Shown here in pieces: positions 1,882 through 48,311 of a stretch of DNA of 48,311 nucleotides (position 1 is the first letter of the stretch; each line of letters opens with the position of its first letter). Origin of the DNA: a virus. A program made the translations under genes and the position numbers. The DNA is taken from positions 1 to 48,311 of IMG/VR virus record IMGVR_UViG_3300037635_001647. One strand, written 5' to 3'. The notes below the pieces were generated by a model. That model was given only the letters and a program-made list of their open reading frames with translations. It ran no database searches and was not told the DNA's origin.

Positions 1882-2276
1882 GTCCATTAGATAGTTTGTA
1901 TAAAGTATGGGAAGAGGCTAACTCAGATTCTAAAACCATAAAACTAACAACTAAAAATGATGATGCTATATTGTTCAAAGGTATAAAGATCGTCAACTCA
2001 TCTAAAGGAATAAAAATATACAATACAAAAAAAGCAGGACTAGATTATAAGGAGATTAGTTACGATGACTATATTTATTTTATAAATAGAGGTTTTAGAA
2101 GTGGTGTTTATCATATACTTAAAAGAACTTACAAAGAACAGATTGATGCCATCACGCAAAAAATTCAAAACGAGGTAAACCAAAGAAACAATAAAAAGCA
2201 TTACGATTACCTAAAACAAAAGAGGGATAACATTATAAAAAAATACACACAAATTATTAAAAAAGAGAAATTATGA
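1872..2276 (+). CDS. Hypothetical basic protein (134 aa)
   Basis: The ATG at 1872 is preferred over an in-frame ATG at 1851, because it overlaps the preceding gene by only 10 bp. The N-terminal half looks like a small beta-rich domain (KTIKLTTKNDD, ILFKGIKIVNSSKGIKIYNT) and the C-terminal half is a long, very basic helix with coiled-coil character ending KKYTQIIKKEKL. No family is recognised. It lies between the DnaA-like gene and the annealing protein and overlaps the latter by 4 bp, so a nucleic-acid-associated role is plausible but unproven. Confidence 0.65.
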   Translation: MLLSPLDSLYKVWEEANSDSKTIKLTTKNDDAILFKGIKIVNSSKGIKIYNTKKAGLDYKEISYDDYIYFINRGFRSGVYHILKRTYKEQIDAITQKIQNEVNQRNNKKHYDYLKQKRDNIIKKYTQIIKKEKL

Positions 2277-2866
2277 CAAAAACTACGACTACATTCAAAG
2301 CATTAGCATCTATCAATGTTAAGGATAAAATTGAAAAAAAGGGAAGATTTGATTATTTGTCTTGGGCATATGCTTGGGCAATTATAAAAGACAAGTACCC
2401 AGATGCAAACAGAAAAGTATATGAATCAGATCACACGGGTTTAAATTATTTTACAGACGGAAATACTGCCTATGTAAAGGTTGGTGTAACTGTTGGTGGA
2501 GTAGAACACATTGATTACTTACCGATTATGAATCATCAGAACAGATCTATAAAGGTAGAAAACGTAACATCTTTTGATGTAAACAAAGCTATTCAAAGAT
2601 CAATGGTAAAAGCTATTGGAATGCACGGATTAGGATTGTCTTTATGGGCAGGCGAAGACCTGGTTGATGTTTCAGAAGAAAAGCCACCTGTAAAGAAAAG
2701 TGTTAAGCCATCTTTAAAGAAGACTCATAAAAATTGGGCAGATTGTGTATCATACATAAAGAACAACAAGTCAGTTCCGTTTGCACAATTAATAAAAAAT
2801 CTAGAAGATAGATTTACAATTCCTGCATCTAATAAGAAAGAATTAAATTCTTACTATGCTAACTAA
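2273..2866 (+). CDS. Single-strand annealing protein, Sak family (DUF1071-type)
   Basis: The 197-residue protein carries the conserved blocks of the Sak/DUF1071 recombinase group: FDYLSWAYAW near residues 26-35, the LPIMNHQNRSIKV stretch, and FDVNKAIQRSMVKAIGMHGL near 100-122 followed by LWAGEDL. These proteins form rings on ssDNA and anneal complementary strands in phage homologous recombination, working with a 5'-3' exonuclease. The residues after about 135 form a lysine-rich linker and a small C-terminal region, possibly for partner contacts. It overlaps the exonuclease gene by 11 bp, which is the expected Red-like pair. Confidence in the family is high; the exact subfamily name is less certain. 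Confidence 0.85.
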   Translation: MTKTTTTFKALASINVKDKIEKKGRFDYLSWAYAWAIIKDKYPDANRKVYESDHTGLNYFTDGNTAYVKVGVTVGGVEHIDYLPIMNHQNRSIKVENVTSFDVNKAIQRSMVKAIGMHGLGLSLWAGEDLVDVSEEKPPVKKSVKPSLKKTHKNWADCVSYIKNNKSVPFAQLIKNLEDRFTIPASNKKELNSYYAN

Positions 2867-3593
2867 AAAGGAGATACTAGATAAACTAAAGGACGATAAG
2901 GAATACTATGGGAAGTTTGGTAAACAATATATGTCAAACTCTGATATATGGACTTTATTAAAAGAGCCACACAAGTATGGTCAAGGAAAGGAAGAAACTG
3001 TACCAATGGTTGCAGGAAGATATTTTCACGTTTCAATATTAGAGCCTGAAAAAGTAGGTATGTTTAATATTATAGACTCTTCAACGAGATCTACAAAAGC
3101 ATACAAGGAGGCATCAGCTGAAGAGGGTAAGATTTTACTACTGAAAAAAGAGCAGGATCATTTAGATTTTTTAATTAACAAAGTAAGATCAAACTTTAGG
3201 TTTCATTCTGATATATTTAACCCATTAAATCAATATGAAGTACCAGGAATTACTGAACTATTTGGATTGAAGTGGAAAGGTAAAGCAGACATCATCACTC
3301 CTGACATATTAATTGACATCAAGACTACCTCAAACATAGATAAATTTAAGTGGAGTTCTCGTGACTATAATTACGACAGTCAAGCATATATTTATCAGCA
3401 AATATTCGGTAAACCTGTAATATTTTATGTAGTTTGCAAGGTTTCTGGTCGACTAGGTATTTTTACACCAACTGAAGATTTTTTAATTGGTGGTAGAGCA
3501 AAGGTGCAAAAGGCGATTGAAGTTTATAATAATTTCTTTACCGAAAATGCAGTGATGGAAATATCTCAACATATTACAATACAAGATTTATAA
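2856..3593 (+). CDS. PD-(D/E)XK exonuclease (RecE/lambda-exo-like partner of the annealing protein)
   Basis: The nuclease core is visible as GKADIITPDILIDIKTT, with metal ligands D145 and D154-x-K156, followed by the SQAYIYQ helix near residue 173 that this group uses for DNA end handling. The N-terminal half (NSDIWTLLKEPHKY and the AGRYFHVSILEP block) matches the PDDEXK exonucleases of the RecE/DUF3799 type. It is expected to resect dsDNA ends and hand ssDNA to the annealing protein encoded just upstream, in the cytoplasm during replication and recombination. Length (245 aa) fits the lambda-exo class. The start at 2856 lies inside the upstream gene, giving tight coupling. Confidence 0.85.
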   Translation: MLTKKEILDKLKDDKEYYGKFGKQYMSNSDIWTLLKEPHKYGQGKEETVPMVAGRYFHVSILEPEKVGMFNIIDSSTRSTKAYKEASAEEGKILLLKKEQDHLDFLINKVRSNFRFHSDIFNPLNQYEVPGITELFGLKWKGKADIITPDILIDIKTTSNIDKFKWSSRDYNYDSQAYIYQQIFGKPVIFYVVCKVSGRLGIFTPTEDFLIGGRAKVQKAIEVYNNFFTENAVMEISQHITIQDL

Positions 3594-38221: not shown

Positions 38222-38785
38222 TTATAAAACCATAGTTATATTGTTTGTAAACATCCTATATAGTTTTTCTTCTTCTACAATAAAAGGATATTCGCTTTCA
38301 GGCTCAAAACAAATAGTATCACCTTCTTTTAATCCTTTTTCTAATAGCTCAGAATTTATATATTTTATAATACCAGTTAATGGTTCTTCAGTATTAGAAC
38401 CTTTAATATAAGAATCTTTTTTTAATATTGGTTTTATCATTACATATTTAGAATGACATTTCCATTTATCATTATGCTTAAACATAAAAAACTGATCCTC
38501 TTCTATAAAAAATAAATCGTCTTTAAAAAAACTTTTACCGCTTTTTTGACGACCTTTCATATCATTATAAAATTTAAAAACATTATGGTGAACTAGTAAA
38601 ATATCACCTGGAGTAATTTCTCCCTTGTAATTTATTGGAGTACTGACAACTTTTGCAAACCTGTTGGAAACGGTATGATCTTCTTTGGACGAACTCATTA
38701 TTAAGTTCACATCCCCTATCTTCTTTACATTATCATACCTTCTTCCATTGTAAGGTTTTACAATGAAATAAAAAGGTGACTTCAT
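38222..38785 (-). CDS. Duplicated GroES-like cochaperonin-fold protein (187 aa)
   Basis: Two halves each show a GroES-like barrel pattern. The first has RFAKVVSTPINYKGEITPGD, then ILLVHHNVFKFY and DLFFIEEDQFFMF. The second has LTGIIKYINSELLEKGLKEG, then DTICFEPESEYPFIVEEEKL and YRMFTNNITMVL. This repeats the GroES order of a glycine turn (x-GD), a strand, the acidic E-E/D-(K/Q) hairpin and a final V-(L/V) strand. A loop with KGRQKSGKSFFKDD in the first half may be the chaperonin-contacting mobile loop. T4 gp31 is a precedent for a phage cochaperonin used for capsid folding. It lies in the packaging/morphogenesis cluster. Similarity is by eye only. Confidence 0.6.
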   Translation of the reverse strand: MKSPFYFIVKPYNGRRYDNVKKIGDVNLIMSSSKEDHTVSNRFAKVVSTPINYKGEITPGDILLVHHNVFKFYNDMKGRQKSGKSFFKDDLFFIEEDQFFMFKHNDKWKCHSKYVMIKPILKKDSYIKGSNTEEPLTGIIKYINSELLEKGLKEGDTICFEPESEYPFIVEEEKLYRMFTNNITMVL

Positions 38786-40384: not shown

Positions 40385-40696
40385 TTATGGAGCGCACAAT
40401 CCAACAGATGTGCAAACACCGCTTACTACTCTATAATAAGAAAATACATTGCTACCGCTTCCAACCGTATAAAATCCATTTGAAGTTGCTGTTGTTCCTG
40501 CAGCATTATCATAAACATTATCATTTACTTGAGGGCTTGTACCTGAACCATCGTGATACTTAGTTGTATTCACAATTTGCGTACATATAAACTTTACATC
40601 GGTTTGTCCTGAACCAGAACTAAATGATGTTAATGTTGCACAGTCTTTATCGTAACCGTACCAATCTGAAAATCTATATGGATAAGCTATAGGCAT
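40385..40696 (-). CDS. Small appendage protein with Cys-motif repeat unit (103 aa)
   Basis: The start MPIAYPYRFSDWYGYDKDC is an attachment-type N-terminus, followed by a beta-rich region. Its second half (VNDNVYDNAAGTTATSNGFY, then TVGSGSNVFSYYRVVSGVC) matches one unit of the repeat in the 21910-22833 protein: a Y-x-D strand, an NGFY turn, a Y-Y-R strand and terminal Cys residues. Short length and position beside the fiber gene suggest a tail-tip or baseplate-like appendage. Confidence 0.6.
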   Translation of the reverse strand: MPIAYPYRFSDWYGYDKDCATLTSFSSGSGQTDVKFICTQIVNTTKYHDGSGTSPQVNDNVYDNAAGTTATSNGFYTVGSGSNVFSYYRVVSGVCTSVGLCAP

Positions 40697-40706
40697 AATT
40701 TAAATT

Positions 40707-41171
40707 TTAAGGACAAGAACAACCAGCGGAAGTTATTACCCCAGATGAATTAACTGTAATATTTGGACAATTGTCTGTACAATTAAAGAACGTTCCTTGA
40801 CTCCATATCCAATATGAATTAGTTTGTGAAGCACCTGTCCAGGCTGTATATGATCCATTTACATAATCATATAAAACATCATTTGTCGTTAAACCTGTAA
40901 TAGGGTTTCTTGTTGTGTAAACAGTAACATTTGGGGTAGAAGGATAAGTAGCTTCTGTTAGAGTAATTTGGTAATAAGATCTATCAACTGGATTAGGTGT
41001 ACAGTCATCGTTTACTGTAGGATAAGAATTACCAGATCCGTGTGAGTTTCCACCATTTATCATATCATACATAGATATTGGTCCAGTTATAGTTCCTGAA
41101 CCCCAAGTGCCATATAACGCTTCTTGCGCTATAGATTCCATAGATAATGCTCCTGACGTTGGTACTGCCAT
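40707..41171 (-). CDS. Small appendage protein (154 aa)
   Basis: The N-terminus MAVPTSGALSMESIAQEALY followed by GPISMYDMINGG is a recurrent virion-protein start in marine phages. The remainder is beta-rich, Thr/Asn/Tyr-rich and ends in Cys-containing turns (FFNCTDNCPNITV and SAGCSCP). Its start overlaps the fiber stop by one base (TAATG), so it is coupled to the fiber. It could be a fiber adaptor or cap. Confidence 0.6.
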   Translation of the reverse strand: MAVPTSGALSMESIAQEALYGTWGSGTITGPISMYDMINGGNSHGSGNSYPTVNDDCTPNPVDRSYYQITLTEATYPSTPNVTVYTTRNPITGLTTNDVLYDYVNGSYTAWTGASQTNSYWIWSQGTFFNCTDNCPNITVNSSGVITSAGCSCP

Positions 41172-44100
41172 TATTTAATTTGTTTTTTAAGTTCTTCTAT
41201 TTCCGCTTTTAATTCTTTTATTGCTTCTAAAAGTATAGGTGTTATTCCTTGATACCTTAAAGATAAGTTTCCTTTACCACTATCTCTAACAAGTTCTGGT
41301 AAAACTTTTTCAACATCTTGAGCTATAAAACCTATATCTTCTTTTATATCTAATATACTATCAGCTTCTTTCCAATCAAATGTAACACCTTGAAGCTGCA
41401 TTGCTTTATCTAAAGCACTTTCAATTGGCTTAATGTTTTCTTTATATTTTCTATCAGATGGTGATCCATAAGCTATTACATCTCCTTTCACTGTTAAGTC
41501 TCCCCCGCCTGTAGTACTCGTATCAAGTGTCATATAACTAACTTCACTTGCACCAGCAGCATCATTACTCCATCTAAAATTATAACCATTCCCAGCTGTT
41601 ACCTTAAAATGACCAGATTTAGTACCTGTTGTATTTGGTTTTAAATGTAAAACAGCAGCTCCTGCTGTACTTGATTCAATTATAACGTGAGGATTAATAG
41701 CAGCAAACCTTGCAATTGCACCACTCGAAGTTCCGTCTCTAACATCTAATAAATATGATGGAGTATTTACTCCAATTCCAACGTTACCTGTTGTTTCTTC
41801 AATAATAAATCTTATGTTGTCACCTGATTCTCCACCAATAGTTTCTGATATATAAAAACCTGTGCCTTCATCAGTAATTAAGTCAAATGCAAGATTAGCG
41901 CTATCTGAATCTTCAAGTCTTATACCTGCGGTTCCACTATTTTTAATATGTATCTGTTGCAATGCCGTATTACCAGTGCTTGCATTACCAGCCATAATTG
42001 ACCCAACAACTCTTGTCTGTCCATTAACCTCTAATTTGTTAACACTGTTCATAGTAGTGGTGTTAACAGCAACCCTTTCATTTAAACTAATTTGACTGGA
42101 TGTTATAACCATAGATTGGACAGTGCTTCCATTAGCTTTAAAAGCTATTTGACCAGTTGTATTATCAATAGTAAAAGCACCTGAGCCATTGCCCGACATA
42201 ACCACATCTGTAGAACTACTTTCTAAATATAGATCACCAGTAAGCGGAACTGTTGACCCAGCTGTAAGTGGTAAGTAAGGACCACCTGAACCACCGCCAC
42301 TTGATACGGATATGTTACCATTAGCATCAGTTACTAATGTTCCAGCTCCTAAATCACTAAATTGTATTGTTCCATTTGAATTTACATCAAGTATTGGTAC
42401 ACCAGATATATCCGATACTGCAAATATAGATCCACTAAGATCATCTGTAACTGAGAATAACTGACCTTGTGTTCCTTGTACGTCAAGTTTAGCGTTAGGC
42501 GTTGATGTCCCGATACCTACTTTGCCTCTATCTAAAACTAAATTATTTGTATAATAAGTTCCTGCATATCTTGTAAAAAACTCTAATACATTAGAAGAAC
42601 TTAACCAACGCATTGAACCTCTATAATTCGTATCAGTATCACTAACTGTTACCACAGGATCTGAATTATTTAGCACGGTAAGAGAAGTTCCTGTAACTTG
42701 TACTTTTCCTGCAACATCTAATTTTTCATCAGGACTTGTCGTTCCGATACCTAAATCTCCTGAAAAATAACCATTACCATCAACAGATAATTTCATAGTT
42801 GATAAAGGAGTAGAGTCAGGACTTGTAAATCCAATTCCAACATTACCGTTTGATGCAATTCTCATTTTTTCTGTAGCAGCAACACTTGTATCAGTTCCAT
42901 CTGTGTTGTTGGTTTTGAAAACTATATCCCCTTTATACCAAGTTGTTTGATTTGTTACAAAATCAATAGACTGCATAGCAGATCCATTATTAGAGTAACC
43001 TCTTGCTTGACCTATAATTCTTGATATAGTTAAATTAGCAACTCCATCAGCGGCTGTATTTGTTAATACTATATCCTGCTGCCCTCCTTGTAAATGTAAA
43101 TCCCCATAAACATCAGCACCAGTTCCTATACCTAAATTACCTCCATTTGTAATACGAACTCTTTCTTCTTGAGCAGCGTTGTATGGCGAGGTATAAAAAG
43201 CTAATCCCGAACTAAACGTTGTTGTTGAGGTTCCATTTCCAGTTTCACAAACTGCTAAAATACTTGCCGCTGTTCTTACTCCAACACCTGAAGAATCTGC
43301 ACCATAAAACTCAATTTTACCTAATTGATCATCTGGACCCCAACCTGTTTTAGCTCCTGCTCTAATTTGCAAATACCCAGAAATGACGGGATTATTTCCA
43401 GAAGCCTCAGATGAATATGTGTCTATATATACTCGGTCAGAAACGTCTAAAAGTGCAGCAGGACTTTCGCTTGCAATTCCAACTTTACCATCGTGTGATA
43501 TTCTCATTGATTCAGCTGAGTCAGCTGATCCAGTTCCAGAACCGTGTGTAAAAAACACTAATCCTTGTCTATCTGCATCAGAACTTCCTTGAACACTTGA
43601 TATTGCTGCTCTACCAGATCCATTAGCGCCAAAAGAAATTGCAGCACCAAAATCACCCAAACCTATTGCAGCGTTAGTTTTTAAATCAATACCTCCTCTT
43701 GCTTGACCTGAATTGGTTTTTACATAAGGATCACCTTCAACAACTAATTTTCCAGTCGTAGGGGTTGTGGTCCCGATCCCAACGTTACCTGTATTTTTAA
43801 ATATAGTATTAGTAGTTAAAGAACTTGAACCTATCTCCAATATATTTGAAGAGTTTAACTTTAATACATCTCTAAATGCTCCTGAAGTATCTTTAGTAAT
43901 AATACCTATGTTATTATTCATAGCTAAATCACCAGTAAGTATCTCACCAGAACCAGCTGTTAACGGTAAGTAGTTCCCAATAGGAACCGCTGCTGCTGCT
44001 GCGTCTGCATAAGCAGTTGTTGCTATTAATGTAGAGTTATTAGCAGCGGTTTGTGTTGCTGCGGTCACTCCGTCAGCTAAAGAAGATGTAGCAGTTACAA

Positions 44101-46609
44101 TACCTGTTAAATCACCTGCAAAAGCTGTTGCTGTAATAGTGCCTACTGTGTTAATATCTACAGTATCTAAAGCTCCATCGTGTGAGTAGCTTACCGATCT
44201 ACCATTTCTTGATACATCATAAAACGCACGAGTTCTATATACCTCATTCGAATCGTCTATATCAACAATTTTATAGTCTGTGCCAAAAACTTTACTGGAT
44301 GCGTCAAGCGCTCCAAGAGCAACAAAAACGTGATGTGGTCCAGCAGGTGTACACGTCCAAAGTAGTTTGTCATCATATGATTGACCAGAACCAGAACCTA
44401 CACCATCCCATAATTCAGCAAGTGTTGGTAAACGAGCTTTATGACCCTCTACAGCTTGCCACGCCTCTAAATAAGTAAACGTAGCGTCGTTATCTATTCC
44501 TGACAAATCAGCTTCACCATAAACGTCAGTATACGCAGAATTACCAGTTGTTCCTATACTACCTGCTTCAGAGTAAGTTTGTATTGATAGTGGTCTATGT
44601 GTTGCCTCTACAAACGACCAAGGCTCACTACTGTATTCTTTTCTAACAACACCCGTCATTGTTCCACCTGTCAATGGCAAGTAAGGACCACCTATTACTG
44701 TTGAGGCGTCTACCCAAGTTGGTGAAGCATCAGAATTTGATTTAAGTATTTGACCAGCGGTTCCGTAAGCAGTTCCTGTAGATCCAAATGATATACCTCC
44801 AGCAGAAGTAATAGTCATTTTTTCTGAATTGTTAGTTGCAAAACGCATATCTGCATCTTCAAATAAATACATTTGAGCAACTGTTCCATTCCAACCTACT
44901 CTAAATCCGTCACTCGTACCCGTGCCTGTGGCTGCAGTTGTAAAATTCATTTGAGCATCTACCGCTCCTGTAGCTGAATTGTGTATATCTAATAAATCAT
45001 TAGGTGTTTTTACTCCAATACCAAGTGCTTTTGTAATGTATACGTTTGTCTTTGGATCAATTATAATAGAGCTTGGGTCTACGATCGCAGCAGCGTCTAA
45101 ACCTAAATAACCACCGTAAGTACTACCAGCATCAGTTGAAATAATAAAATCAGAGGTTGATGTTACATCAGCAGTATAACCTAAACCAATAGTATTTCCA
45201 GCAGTATTGGAATATATTATTTTACCAGAAGCACCACCGCCACCACCATTTCCAGAATCACGTAATGTTAATTGTGGTACACCACCATTACTTACTGTTA
45301 TATTGCCACTGCTTAATGCACCTGCAAAAGTTGTATCACTACCTGAAACAGTTATTGGTGCATTACCTAAAGTTTCTGAATCTGTAACTGAAGCTGGACC
45401 TTCCCATAAAGCTACAGTTTGCCCTGTACCTACACCTGATAATACAGACGAGTTATCTATCTTTTGCCAACCACCTGTGCCTGTGCCTGCACAATCAACT
45501 ATATCATCATTCCAAATAACCCAGTCTCCTGTTTCCCAAGAGTCAGGTTCACAACCTGTTCCGTTAGGCTCAGCAGTACCAGCGGCACTACAGATATAAT
45601 AGTAACCAGATGTTTGAGTTACACCGCTTAAATCAGGTGAGCCATATCCACCGCCGCTTGGATCCCAAGCACCTCTATATATTGTAGCACCAGTAATTAA
45701 ACCGTCTACATAACCTTTTGTTGTTAGGGTTGACGACGCGTCTCCTGAAGATGTAGCGGTAGTTGCGAATGCTTGATTTCCAAAAGTTGCGTTTTGATCT
45801 TTAGCTAATGTTAGTGCAGTTGCTAAGCCTCCAGTTGTGTTTCTTGTTTGTAATAGTAATTGCCCTGGGTAAGCATTAGAACTCCAACTACCATCTGCTT
45901 TTCCAAAAATAGCAGCACCATTGTTAAAAGTACCATCTGTTGGATCATCGCCTTGAAACGCAATAGAACCCAAAGTATTTGTTCCAGATATTGATGTATC
46001 GTCTCTTCTAAGGTTTAAGCCAGCACCTCCTGCTGTTTGTGATGTTATATTCCCTTTTGCAACAAGAGTATTCTGAAATACAGAGTTTCCTTCAGGACTA
46101 ATGCTAAATGTTTCTGTTGTTGTTCCAGTACTATCATCATAAAATTGAAACGCTAATTTAGCACCAGACGTACCTCTAATTAAATAAATATCATTTGGAT
46201 CTGGAAAAGAATTAGTATCTGTAAATCCTAATGATGGTCTTGATGAATTAATGTATATGCTTGCAGATCCCAGATTTTCAGTTGATATTAATGATCCAGT
46301 TAATGTTCCACCAGCTAATGGCAAAAAAGGTCCTGTACCACCACCTGATCCATCTACATATGCTTTAGTTACAAAGTTAGCTGCATCAACAGGGGTTATA
46401 CCAGATACTAAGCCTGTAAACAAAGAAGTACCACTTGAGTTGACATCAAGTATTGGTACACCAGATATATCTGACACAGCGAATATAGATCCGCTTAAGT
46501 CATCGGTTACTGAAAACAATTGTCCTTGTGAACCCTGTATATCTACAACAGTTCCACCTGATGCTCCTGTGACAATTAAGCCTTTTTTTATTTTAAATTC
46601 GTTTGCCAT
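41171..46609 (-). CDS. Large tail fiber with C-terminal S74 self-cleaving chaperone domain (1,812 aa)
   Basis: The protein is a long trimeric-fiber type with many NVGIGTTTP- and NLGIGTGAD-like repeats typical of beta-helical trimer segments. The last about 95 residues are an S74 intramolecular chaperone: SDRKYKENIKP with the Ser1718-Lys1723 dyad, then DIGFIAQDVEKVLPELV and a coiled coil ELKAEIEELKKQIK. Autocleavage before Ser1718 is predicted. A 39-residue unit near the N-terminus (23-61) recurs near residue 1376. Around residues 700-800 is a different globular region (YLEAWQAVEGHKARLPTLAE, then LLWTCTPAGPHHVFVAL) that resembles lectin-like/DUF1566 folds. It is probably the main receptor-binding fiber. 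Confidence 0.85.
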   Translation of the reverse strand: MANEFKIKKGLIVTGASGGTVVDIQGSQGQLFSVTDDLSGSIFAVSDISGVPILDVNSSGTSLFTGLVSGITPVDAANFVTKAYVDGSGGGTGPFLPLAGGTLTGSLISTENLGSASIYINSSRPSLGFTDTNSFPDPNDIYLIRGTSGAKLAFQFYDDSTGTTTETFSISPEGNSVFQNTLVAKGNITSQTAGGAGLNLRRDDTSISGTNTLGSIAFQGDDPTDGTFNNGAAIFGKADGSWSSNAYPGQLLLQTRNTTGGLATALTLAKDQNATFGNQAFATTATSSGDASSTLTTKGYVDGLITGATIYRGAWDPSGGGYGSPDLSGVTQTSGYYYICSAAGTAEPNGTGCEPDSWETGDWVIWNDDIVDCAGTGTGGWQKIDNSSVLSGVGTGQTVALWEGPASVTDSETLGNAPITVSGSDTTFAGALSSGNITVSNGGVPQLTLRDSGNGGGGGASGKIIYSNTAGNTIGLGYTADVTSTSDFIISTDAGSTYGGYLGLDAAAIVDPSSIIIDPKTNVYITKALGIGVKTPNDLLDIHNSATGAVDAQMNFTTAATGTGTSDGFRVGWNGTVAQMYLFEDADMRFATNNSEKMTITSAGGISFGSTGTAYGTAGQILKSNSDASPTWVDASTVIGGPYLPLTGGTMTGVVRKEYSSEPWSFVEATHRPLSIQTYSEAGSIGTTGNSAYTDVYGEADLSGIDNDATFTYLEAWQAVEGHKARLPTLAELWDGVGSGSGQSYDDKLLWTCTPAGPHHVFVALGALDASSKVFGTDYKIVDIDDSNEVYRTRAFYDVSRNGRSVSYSHDGALDTVDINTVGTITATAFAGDLTGIVTATSSLADGVTAATQTAANNSTLIATTAYADAAAAAVPIGNYLPLTAGSGEILTGDLAMNNNIGIITKDTSGAFRDVLKLNSSNILEIGSSSLTTNTIFKNTGNVGIGTTTPTTGKLVVEGDPYVKTNSGQARGGIDLKTNAAIGLGDFGAAISFGANGSGRAAISSVQGSSDADRQGLVFFTHGSGTGSADSAESMRISHDGKVGIASESPAALLDVSDRVYIDTYSSEASGNNPVISGYLQIRAGAKTGWGPDDQLGKIEFYGADSSGVGVRTAASILAVCETGNGTSTTTFSSGLAFYTSPYNAAQEERVRITNGGNLGIGTGADVYGDLHLQGGQQDIVLTNTAADGVANLTISRIIGQARGYSNNGSAMQSIDFVTNQTTWYKGDIVFKTNNTDGTDTSVAATEKMRIASNGNVGIGFTSPDSTPLSTMKLSVDGNGYFSGDLGIGTTSPDEKLDVAGKVQVTGTSLTVLNNSDPVVTVSDTDTNYRGSMRWLSSSNVLEFFTRYAGTYYTNNLVLDRGKVGIGTSTPNAKLDVQGTQGQLFSVTDDLSGSIFAVSDISGVPILDVNSNGTIQFSDLGAGTLVTDANGNISVSSGGGSGGPYLPLTAGSTVPLTGDLYLESSSTDVVMSGNGSGAFTIDNTTGQIAFKANGSTVQSMVITSSQISLNERVAVNTTTMNSVNKLEVNGQTRVVGSIMAGNASTGNTALQQIHIKNSGTAGIRLEDSDSANLAFDLITDEGTGFYISETIGGESGDNIRFIIEETTGNVGIGVNTPSYLLDVRDGTSSGAIARFAAINPHVIIESSTAGAAVLHLKPNTTGTKSGHFKVTAGNGYNFRWSNDAAGASEVSYMTLDTSTTGGGDLTVKGDVIAYGSPSDRKYKENIKPIESALDKAMQLQGVTFDWKEADSILDIKEDIGFIAQDVEKVLPELVRDSGKGNLSLRYQGITPILLEAIKELKAEIEELKKQIK
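42368..42484 (-). repeat. Second copy of a 39-codon direct repeat in the tail fiber
   Basis: Encodes the unit from DVQGTQGQLF to DVNSNGT, differing from the N-terminal copy (46427-46543) at only three residues. The two copies differ at scattered, mostly silent third-codon positions, so the duplication is not recent or has been diversified under protein-level constraint. Confidence 0.85.
46427..46543 (-). repeat. First copy of the 39-codon direct repeat in the tail fiber
   Basis: Encodes DIQGSQGQLF to DVNSSGT (residues 23-61), just after the N-terminal attachment segment. It pairs with the copy at 42368-42484 and could allow recombination that deletes the fiber middle. Confidence 0.85.
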
Positions 46610-46644
46610 AATTTTTACCTTTCATTTTCCAGGTTATTTTTTAG

Positions 46645-47313
46645 TTATAAGAATCTTGATTTTTGTGCGTTATAATTTTGTTCTATTTCTGTAGCGGTTA
46701 AAGCTTTATTATAAAGTCTAACTGTATAAATAGTTCCAGGAGCTTCAGAACCACCATTAAATGAAGCAATAAAATTACTTGAAGTAGCCCCTACTTTGTT
46801 ATCTGACACAGAGGCACCATCTGCTACACCATTTATATATGTTTGATAAGAAGTTCCATTAAATGTAACGGCTACGTGAGTGTTTTCAGCATCTGGAACA
46901 ACGTTAGTAGATTGTACGTCAACCCTTGGATTAACTCCATCATAGCCGTGCATAACAAGACGATTTCCTAATCCTGATCTGTGTTTTAAAAACCAAATAC
47001 CTGTACTTGAACCATTACCTGCTGAAAATATTGTTTTGTTGTTATTTCCAGTGCTTGTAATATTTACCACAGCTTCTACAGTAAATGCATCAACATTTAA
47101 AATTGAACTACTAATAGAAATATTATCGTCTGTGCCATCAAAAGTAAACCCTCCACCAAAAGAACTTGTAAATCCAACTCCGTTATTTAATGTACCAGTT
47201 GCTGATCCTACTAAACTCGTAGTGGTTGTTCCTGATCCAGGATAACTTCTTGTGCTACCTGCGTCAACCGCGAATACTAATCCGTCTGTTACTATGTCTG
47301 GTCCTACGTACAT
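46645..47313 (-). CDS. LamG/concanavalin-like jelly-roll protein (222 aa), paralogue 1
   Basis: The start MYVGPDIVTDGLVFAVDAGS, then RSYPGSGTTTTSLVG, is followed by a LamG-like jelly-roll: GGGFTFDGTDDNISIS, then FTVEAVVNI, THVAVTFNGTSYQTYINGVA and the last strand IYTVRLYNKALTATEIEQNYN ending AQKSRFL. These folds bind carbohydrates or serve as phage appendage domains. The FDG-x-DD and final RLYN-x-ALT-x-EI elements define the family. It is the first of three tandem paralogues and its start overlaps the next gene's stop by one base. A glycan-binding appendage is likely. Confidence 0.75.
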   Translation of the reverse strand: MYVGPDIVTDGLVFAVDAGSTRSYPGSGTTTTSLVGSATGTLNNGVGFTSSFGGGFTFDGTDDNISISSSILNVDAFTVEAVVNITSTGNNNKTIFSAGNGSSTGIWFLKHRSGLGNRLVMHGYDGVNPRVDVQSTNVVPDAENTHVAVTFNGTSYQTYINGVADGASVSDNKVGATSSNFIASFNGGSEAPGTIYTVRLYNKALTATEIEQNYNAQKSRFL

Positions 47314-48020
47314 TATATAAATCTGTTTTTTTGTGCGTTATAATTTTGTAATACTTCAGCATCTGTAAGCGCTTGATTGTATATTCTGGAAATTGCAATT
47401 TTACCAGGGAAAGGAGACAGTCCTGTTGTTAATCCTGATTTTATACTTGCAGTAGAACTTGCGTTTAAAGATGAGTATACCCCAGAAGTTCTTGTAAAAT
47501 CCGTAACTCCATTAATATATATTTTAACAAAACTACCAGCTGAAAACACCGCTGTAATATAATACCATACATTAGCTGAAGGATTCCAATCAGTGCGGTA
47601 GTTATCTTGCTGTGTGTATGAGGAATTATACAAGTAAAAAGATATTCCTTTTTGACTTCCACTACTTCTATATCCTAAAATAAAATTTCTTGATGAAGTT
47701 GGAGAAGCGCTCCATTTAGTTAAAACAGGAAAATCACTACCTGATGGATTAGTATTTGATAAATTAATCCAAGCACTACAAGAAAAAGAAGATACAGGGG
47801 TTATACTATTTGTATAATCTATGTAATCATCCACCCCGTCAAAAATAAAAGTTCCACCATTAGAGCTACTAAATCCCACTCCATTAGTTAAAGTGCCATT
47901 AATCAAACCTTCTAAACTACTTACTGACGTTCCTGATCCTGGATAACTTCTTATGCTTCCAGCATCTATAGCAAGTTGTAATCCATCTGTTATTATGTCT
48001 GGTCCTCCAAATGCTCCCAT
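47313..48020 (-). CDS. LamG/concanavalin-like jelly-roll protein (235 aa), paralogue 2
   Basis: It shares the layout of paralogue 1: GPDIITDGLQLAIDAGSIRS, then YPGSGTSVSSLEG, TFIFDGVDDYIDY, a Trp-containing strand FSCSAWINL and the final ISRIYNQALTDAEVLQNYN with AQKNRFI. Core strands differ strongly between the copies (the middle has SRNFILGYRSSGSQKGISFY), while both ends are kept, as expected for receptor-facing diversification of one scaffold. It lies between a short gene and paralogue 1. It is probably surface-exposed on the tail or head. Confidence 0.75.
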   Translation of the reverse strand: MGAFGGPDIITDGLQLAIDAGSIRSYPGSGTSVSSLEGLINGTLTNGVGFSSSNGGTFIFDGVDDYIDYTNSITPVSSFSCSAWINLSNTNPSGSDFPVLTKWSASPTSSRNFILGYRSSGSQKGISFYLYNSSYTQQDNYRTDWNPSANVWYYITAVFSAGSFVKIYINGVTDFTRTSGVYSSLNASSTASIKSGLTTGLSPFPGKIAISRIYNQALTDAEVLQNYNAQKNRFI

Positions 48021-48021
48021 A

Positions 48022-48264
48022 TTATCCTTGTGGGTTTGGGTCAGTCCATTCTGGAGTAGCCATTATTGCTAATATCTCTTCGTGGGTGTAAGGTCCTTCA
48101 TATGAACTTAATGTTGATACAAATGCAGGTTCATCACCCTCCCACTTTAATACTGTTTGTAAACCATCAACTGATAGTCTAACTGTATCTATTGATGTTT
48201 CCATAACTTCGTTGAAATCAACTAAAGATAATTCGTCTGTTTTTATTGTAATGTATGTTATCAT
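48022..48264 (-). CDS. Hypothetical protein (80 aa) within the LamG cluster
   Basis: A small acidic protein beginning MITYITIKTDELSLVDFNEV and containing a tryptophan-rich C-terminal part (VLKWEGDEPAFVS, then EEILAIMATPEWTDPNPQG). The EIL-x-IMATPEW helix with prolines resembles small appendage-assembly proteins, but no family is assigned. It is inserted between two LamG paralogues and overlaps the upstream one's stop by four bases. Confidence 0.6.
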   Translation of the reverse strand: MITYITIKTDELSLVDFNEVMETSIDTVRLSVDGLQTVLKWEGDEPAFVSTLSSYEGPYTHEEILAIMATPEWTDPNPQG

Positions 48265-48311
48265 AATCCAAATCTTGATTTTTGTGCGTTAAAATTTTGC
48301 AGTACTTCTGC
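48261..48311 (-). CDS. C-terminal fragment of a third LamG paralogue (cut by the window edge)
   Basis: The - strand reads AEVLQNFNAQKSRFGL then TGA at the right edge, matching the last residues of paralogues 1 and 2 (IEQNYNAQKSRFL and VLQNYNAQKNRFI). Most of the gene lies outside the window. Its stop overlaps the following ATG (ATGA). Confidence 0.7.
   Translation of the reverse strand, partial: AEVLQNFNAQKSRFGL

Follow-up and report, generated by a model that had tools for sequence, protein, structure and literature searches.

A probable three-slot module of slot-tagged LamG lectin genes with exchangeable cores in a podovirus-like Bacteroidota phage

The right end of a viral contig, an IMG/VR record of 48,311 bases taken here as a whole (the window), probably carries a three-slot adhesin module of a podovirus-like Bacteroidota phage, in which slot-tagged LamG lectins exchange their receptor-binding cores by homologous recombination; we assign this reading a probability of roughly 0.7. 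In the proposed arrangement, each slot protein would consist of a slot-specific N-terminal tag of ~12 residues, a variable core that is predicted to bind the receptor, and a common C-terminal helix. Through its tag, each protein would dock at a particular site of the tail fibre or tail tip, and the cores would be replaced through conserved DNA at gene ends and junctions, both between phages and between slots. This recombination would probably be carried out by the phage's own Sak-type annealing protein together with an exonuclease, and anchor80, a small gene within the module, may encode an assembly factor or connector.

The window is a complete IMG/VR record and its right edge is the contig end; what lies beyond that edge was therefore judged only from relatives. 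The terminase, portal, and structural genes match phage PHROG families, and the portal is 68% identical to that of MW202828.1 (a 60.9-kb podovirus genome, Manatee Spring) and ~45–50% identical to those of Flavobacterium and Maribacter phages. Along the minus strand at the right end lie the 3' end of a LamG gene (slot A), anchor80, two complete LamG genes (slots B and C), and an S74-type tail fibre gene (Table 1), the slots being named by their position in gene order. The earlier note had described two complete LamG proteins and the end of a third, with the motifs GPDI(V/I)TDGL and RSYPGSG and ends of the form QN(Y/F)NAQK(S/N)RF, all of which we found in place. It had set the LamG genes simply in a row and overlooked anchor80, an 80-aa gene that sits between the truncated copy and slot B and whose start is overlapped by the slot A stop codon. 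A nucleotide search of the LamG block against named phages gave no match. Elsewhere in the window, the S74 fibre is modular, with its first ~60 residues 92–98% identical in several relatives and its middle matching piecewise only; a GroES-like co-chaperonin is encoded at 38222–38785 (phrog_13932, E 1.8e-21) and near the same place in relatives; and the 2,425-aa product of 10258–17535 matches no PHROG at 1e-3.

Table 1. Positions of the module, its junction islands, and the candidate recombination genes in the window
Feature	Position	Strand	Evidence or remark
Slot A LamG gene, 3' end, cut by contig end	48261..48311	-	Translation AEVLQNFNAQKSRFGL*; whole LamG gene there in relatives
anchor80, 80 aa, conserved small gene between slots A and B	48022..48264	-	Kept in relatives; alignments A1, A3; model
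Slot B LamG protein, 235 aa	47313..48020	-	Laminin_G_3 E 5.6e-20; model pLDDT 83.5, concanavalin-type lectin fold
Slot C LamG protein, 222 aa	46645..47313	-	Laminin_G_3 E 6.3e-22; core 74% identical to L029 slot C
Tail fibre, 1,812 aa, C-terminal Peptidase_S74 chaperone domain, downstream of slot C	41171..46609	-	PF13884 E 1.2e-19; tail-fibre PHROGs
Junction island: slot A end, anchor80, slot B start	47979..48311	-	91.0% DNA identity to G001; G002 47947-48299 at 87.6%
Junction island: slot B end, slot C start	47225..47346	-	84.7% to G001; 47278-47357 97.5% to G031
Junction island: slot C end, spacer, S74 fibre start	46431..46680	-	87.2% to G001; G002 46426-46691 at 86.8%
Common 20-mer, slot A 3' end, exact	48271..48290	-	
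Common 20-mer, slot B 3' end, 3 mismatches	47320..47339	-	
Common 20-mer, slot C 3' end, exact	46652..46671	-	
Sak-like (Rad52-type) ssDNA annealing protein, candidate recombinase	2273..2866	+	phrog_659 E 3e-54
Exonuclease VIII-like protein, adjoins Sak-like gene	2856..3593	+	phrog_412 E 1e-26

Slots B and C of the window are paralogues (44% identity, E 3.4e-39) and score 72.4 and 78.8 bits, respectively, with Laminin_G_3 (PF13385), against a curated cut-off of 27.6. Scores fall below that cut-off in some of the relatives' slot proteins (23.5 in slot B of L029), and slot B of L015 has no Laminin_G_3 match at 0.01. The structure model of slot B is a concanavalin-type beta-sandwich with 571 PDB matches at E ≤ 0.001, lectin-type domains foremost; its relatives include carbohydrate-binding domains, for example, AbnA domain 4 (5hon, target-normalised TM 0.78) and sialidase lectin domains. 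Matches to clostridial-toxin and trans-sialidase structures reflect the common lectin fold and imply no toxin gene. The C-terminal end forms a helix in the model, and the end residues are structurally constrained. At the DNA level, the 20-mer common to the LamG 3' ends has a chance expectation of 0.01 at ≤3 mismatches. Core variability, by a crude measure, is equal at strand (0.34) and loop (0.33) positions, and core variation therefore singles out no one loop set. The position beside fibre genes and the annotation of homologous LamG genes of Flavobacterium phage immuto as 'structural protein' suggest that the LamG proteins sit on the tail, where they may bind receptors.

Relatives of anchor80 were found at 20 loci in IMG/VR, and the near clade was defined as the 16 dereplicated contigs, window included, whose anchor80 is at least 79% identical; the near relatives are all metagenomic contigs. 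L016 and L023, whose blocks are the same as those of L015 and L022, respectively, and the divergent L032, L033, and L034 were dropped before the counts, and L040, L043, L045, L046, and L056 were dropped as well (slot-A tag, other layout, no anchor in the stretch fetched). The relatives' order is a large fibre-type gene, LamG slot A, the anchor, LamG slot B, LamG slot C, and an S74-type fibre, and the complete A-anchor-B-C set is present in 12 of the 16 (L015, L017–L022, L024, L026, L027, L029, and L030). Two contigs, the window and L028, are cut by contig ends, and two depart from the three-slot layout: L025, in which the frame of slot B is broken and an intact slot C is missing, and L031, in which slot B is 101 aa long, the genes are longer, and a second gene resembles the anchor. 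In the near clade, the block is fixed at three slots instead of growing as an array. The growing array with more copies past the edge that the earlier note had expected is not what the near clade has there, namely one further LamG gene (slot A) and then the large fibre-type gene; variation in copy number does hold for other phages, whose LamG runs comprise 1 to 11 genes. Nor is a 'store' of silent cassettes supported, each copy being an intact gene with its own start. The same note had held that fixed copy number together with invariant cores in close relatives would speak against it; copy number proved nearly fixed, and the cores proved variable.

Some members of the full sets have peculiarities of their own. 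Slots B and C of L018 lie in a single frame. We considered a real gene fusion, but a possible indel error or sequencing artefact is the better reading, because the frames of the portal and TerL genes of the same contig (G001, IMGVR_UViG_3300050343_000144; 40663–45324) are broken at many points, and there the abundance of stops and frame changes suggests assembly indel errors. L021 has a 71-aa ORF ahead of the anchor, and in slot A of L024 (L024:6508-8004) a glycine-rich domain (PF21722) separates the tag from LamG.

The slot proteins begin with MGF(Y/F)RGP in slot A, mostly with MG(A/T)(Y/F)GGP in slot B, and with MY(T/V)GP in slot C. When the slot was predicted from the nearest neighbour in other genomes, residues 1–12 gave the correct slot in 46/46 cases, two of these entries (L057 slot A and L018 slot C) having been found or cut by their own tag. 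Residues 13–32 were correct in 38/46 and the last 12 residues in 28/44. Slot B of L025, an ORF without a start, was dropped from this test, and slot B of L031 from the core set. In slot C of L027 (8934–9584) and L057 (9154–9804), an MYVGPN start is joined to a remainder without LamG or Pfam match, and the PHROG matches of these genes include virion structural protein. Judged by eye, this remainder resembles a fibrinogen-like domain.

Core identities are bimodal: among the 1,035 pairs formed by 46 cores, 13 stand at about 70–99% identity and all others at ≤38%. Five of the 13 high-identity pairs, amounting to ~four moves, are cross-slot, namely L018 A with L019 C (92%), L057 A with L026 C (88%), L022 A with L015 C (82%), and L025 B with both L030 A and L021 A (72% each). 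In DNA profiles of three cross-slot pairs, the partner switches just inside the gene: the first 30 nt are 97–100% identical to the same-slot gene, and most core windows are ~80–100% identical to the other-slot gene. The cores are not freely mixed and show a preference for their own slot, as the nearest core neighbour is in the same slot in 30/43 cases, against 13.6 in shuffles (sd 3.8). L015 and L017 share slot B (99%) and the anchor (100% DNA), with different slots A and C, and the window and L029 have slot C only in common. The fixed ends, variable cores, and exchange of cores that had been proposed for these genes are supported by the bimodal identities, the cross-slot pairs, and a sister contig that aligns at the gene junctions only. 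A change of receptor range through core exchange, also part of that proposal, is plausible.

The sister contig G001 aligns with the window at 94.6% over 15.6 kb and 95.2% over 10.1 kb of DNA, and a further 9.3 kb, within the part of G001 rich in broken frames, aligns at 83.5%. Within the LamG block, the alignment is restricted to the gene junctions and the anchor (Table 1), with a weaker overlapping piece at window 47169–47305 (76%). For G002 (the contig of L022), the backbone is 70–77% identical in most pieces (up to 83%) and the junctions are 86–88% identical. At residues shared by cross-slot pairs between genomes, synonymous identity is 0.79 over GP..GL and 0.48 over the next 15 codons, and from 0.44 ahead of the tail it rises to 0.78 within it; the rise at the head is as strong in cross-slot as in same-slot LamG pairs. 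The first 14 codons are also raised in three of four control genes (0.81, 0.94, and 0.79 vs 0.64–0.75, a rise of about 0.15–0.2), the fourth having 0.70 vs 0.68–0.75, and the LamG gene-head rise is partly a general gene-start effect. The raised synonymous ends look like recombination arms, a resemblance that the control genes temper. Tail conservation reaches 0.92 in slot A and 0.81 in slot B and is weak in slot C (0.72 vs a background of 0.64); since it peaks where the tail and the following start overlap, constraint from translation may account for some of it. Among 15 LamG runs of other phages, conserved ends of the kind expected of recombination arms formed no consistent pattern: tails are clearly raised in two (L134 and L135), and L097 has no usable columns.

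The anchor gene appears to move too, as its tree contradicts the terminase tree. Anchor80 is 80–96% identical in close relatives, and in 14 genomes (91 pairs) the DNA identity of the anchor does not track the protein identity of TerL (Spearman 0.04, p 0.70); the window and L028 have 98% identical TerL and 85% identical anchors, and the window and L015 have 67% and 95%, respectively. The anchor data reject a clade of the window with L028 (AU p 2.7e-58), a pair that was chosen for the test after the identity comparison had been seen, and a five-member TerL clade (5.3e-63), and the TerL data reject an anchor-based group (9.7e-49). Because L028 is a 16-kb contig, chimerism is possible for the pair of the window and L028; the discordance pattern rests on more than this pair.

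Several other explanations were weighed against homologous exchange of slot-tagged cores. If the ends were conserved for translation, through stop/start overlap and start-proximal codon bias, and the cores replaced by illegitimate recombination and selection, then raised synonymous identity in the first 14 codons of control genes and tail conservation that is highest in A and B would both follow. However, the head-to-middle gap of the LamG genes is larger than that of the controls and equal for cross-slot and same-slot pairs, and the junctions stand above most of the G002 backbone matches, so that we consider this explanation unlikely. Ordinary divergence after an ancient triplication, with fast point mutation under receptor selection and ends conserved by protein constraint only, is decidedly unlikely and already disfavoured: the same-slot preference of nearest core neighbours and the structurally constrained C-terminal helix are in its favour, but it has to contend with the gap in core identity between 38% and about 70%, the cross-slot share of the high pairs, the change of DNA partner inside the gene, and the MYVGP start that L027 and L057 keep in slot C on sequence without LamG match.

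The discordance between the anchor gene and TerL could also mean that the whole block was transferred between lineages as one unit, with cores drifting within it; this we regard as very unlikely, given that slot histories differ within one block, L015 and L017 sharing slot B and the anchor and the window and L029 only slot C. A diversity-generating retroelement, or an inverting or shuffling site-specific system, has a probability close to negligible, even though a lectin-type fold with a hypervariable middle recalls the former. The variation consists of whole cores with indels rather than point changes at set positions, no recombinase of the inverting or shuffling kind was present among the subset of window ORFs scanned, and the retroelement was rejected on the absence of a reverse transcriptase (RVT_1) from all 11 records searched, which are fragments.

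The T-even distal adhesin gp38 is a single adhesin at a single fibre tip, in which glycine-rich motifs separate the variable loops. Unlike gp38, the present system has three lectin-fold genes that appear to exchange entire cores, the window copies being LamG by profile and model. A likeness is offered by the branched tail-spike complex (TSP1–4) of Ackermannviridae, for which exchange by homologous recombination has been reported, including a tsp4/tsp5 recombination that swapped a receptor-binding domain (PMC11414711). As described there, several receptor-binding proteins per virion have conserved N-termini that set their place and a variable receptor-binding part (PMC11414711), an arrangement that the proteins encoded here would share. 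The Ackermannviridae proteins are trimeric tail spikes of large size that possess XD and TD domains (PMC11414711), whereas the present ones are of ~200–240 aa with a fixed N-terminus of ~12 residues, a fixed C-terminus too, and a conserved small partner gene; none of the Pfam matches of the window pointed to XD/TD domains.

In jumbo phages, Laminin G3 and other concanavalin-fold domains occur in connection with tail fibres and further parts of the virion (PMC7824862), and the fold is the same here. That account, in the portions on these domains, covers domain presence, with no mention of arrays, slot tags, or a small partner protein (PMC7824862). In Flavobacterium phage immuto and Synechococcus phages S-SKS1 and S-PM2, LamG genes adjoin fibre genes, as they do here, and immuto and S-SKS1 also carry an anchor relative. 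These phages differ in that sequence identity is 32–36% and three-slot tags were not seen in them, and in S-SKS1 and S-PM2 LamG is fused into large proteins. As for the exchange itself, Rad52-like recombinases favour exchange at short, diverged homology, according to work in temperate phages that tested Red-beta, RecT, and Erf and cites Sak as a RecA cofactor (PMC3945230). The window encodes a Sak-like protein and an exonuclease and may resemble such mosaicism systems in this respect.

Core swapping could let a phage change its attachment target without rebuilding its tail. Phages with large tail spikes and fibres are known to exchange receptor-binding domains; here the exchange would take place in miniature and with natural replicates, as about 16 near-clade contigs allow tags, cores, and junctions to be read one by one and a given core is found in different slots. 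It can therefore be tested whether a short N-terminal tag suffices for the placing of an adhesin and whether the host range of marine Bacteroidota phages is determined by the identity of the core.

The anchor80 model (pLDDT 89.9) has nine structural matches at E ≤ 0.001, all unnamed or uncharacterised viral proteins, and no PDB match at that threshold; sequence comparison with PDB gave no match at E ≤ 1. Among 22 family members, the best PHROG match (E 0.01) was found in one, and the best Pfam match was at 0.097. An alignment-based scan confirmed at least 527 anchor relatives, of which the best 80 were kept. Among these best 80 of at least 527, 64 of the 65 loci outside the near clade have LamG genes in the stretch fetched, as do 44 of the 45 distinct anchors (1 to 11 genes). 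When 19 anchor-bearing contigs were searched whole, 73/82 above-cut-off LamG domains lay within 10 kb of an anchor, in zones making up 16.8% of the bases, a nearness for which a binomial p is too small because LamG genes cluster. In the same contigs, LamG lies within 3 kb of 20/21 anchors. Exceptions are G020, with an anchor and no LamG, and G005, with three slots and no anchor. One anchor relative was confirmed in bacterial and archaeal genomes, in a Planctomycetota MAG, and paper listings yielded no description of phage LamG arrays or of a small LamG partner.

We tentatively suggest, at less than even odds, that anchor80 marks a widespread phage lectin-display platform, in which a small virus-borne protein would assemble on tails, or present there, interchangeable LamG adhesins and now and then other folds. 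Such a platform would range from the three fixed slots of this clade to runs of 11 elsewhere, with the cores as a shared gene pool. As an uncharacterised family beside LamG genes in many phages, the anchor offers a handle for adhesin loci in viral contigs. A distant anchor relative (35%) at L034:2267-2515 lies beside a GroES gene, with no LamG within the 3.8-kb stretch. Runs of 9 to 11 LamG genes surround an anchor relative in L123, L122, L139, and L137, and in L139 two LamG genes lie between neighbours that are 91–92% identical to adjacent genes of L137.
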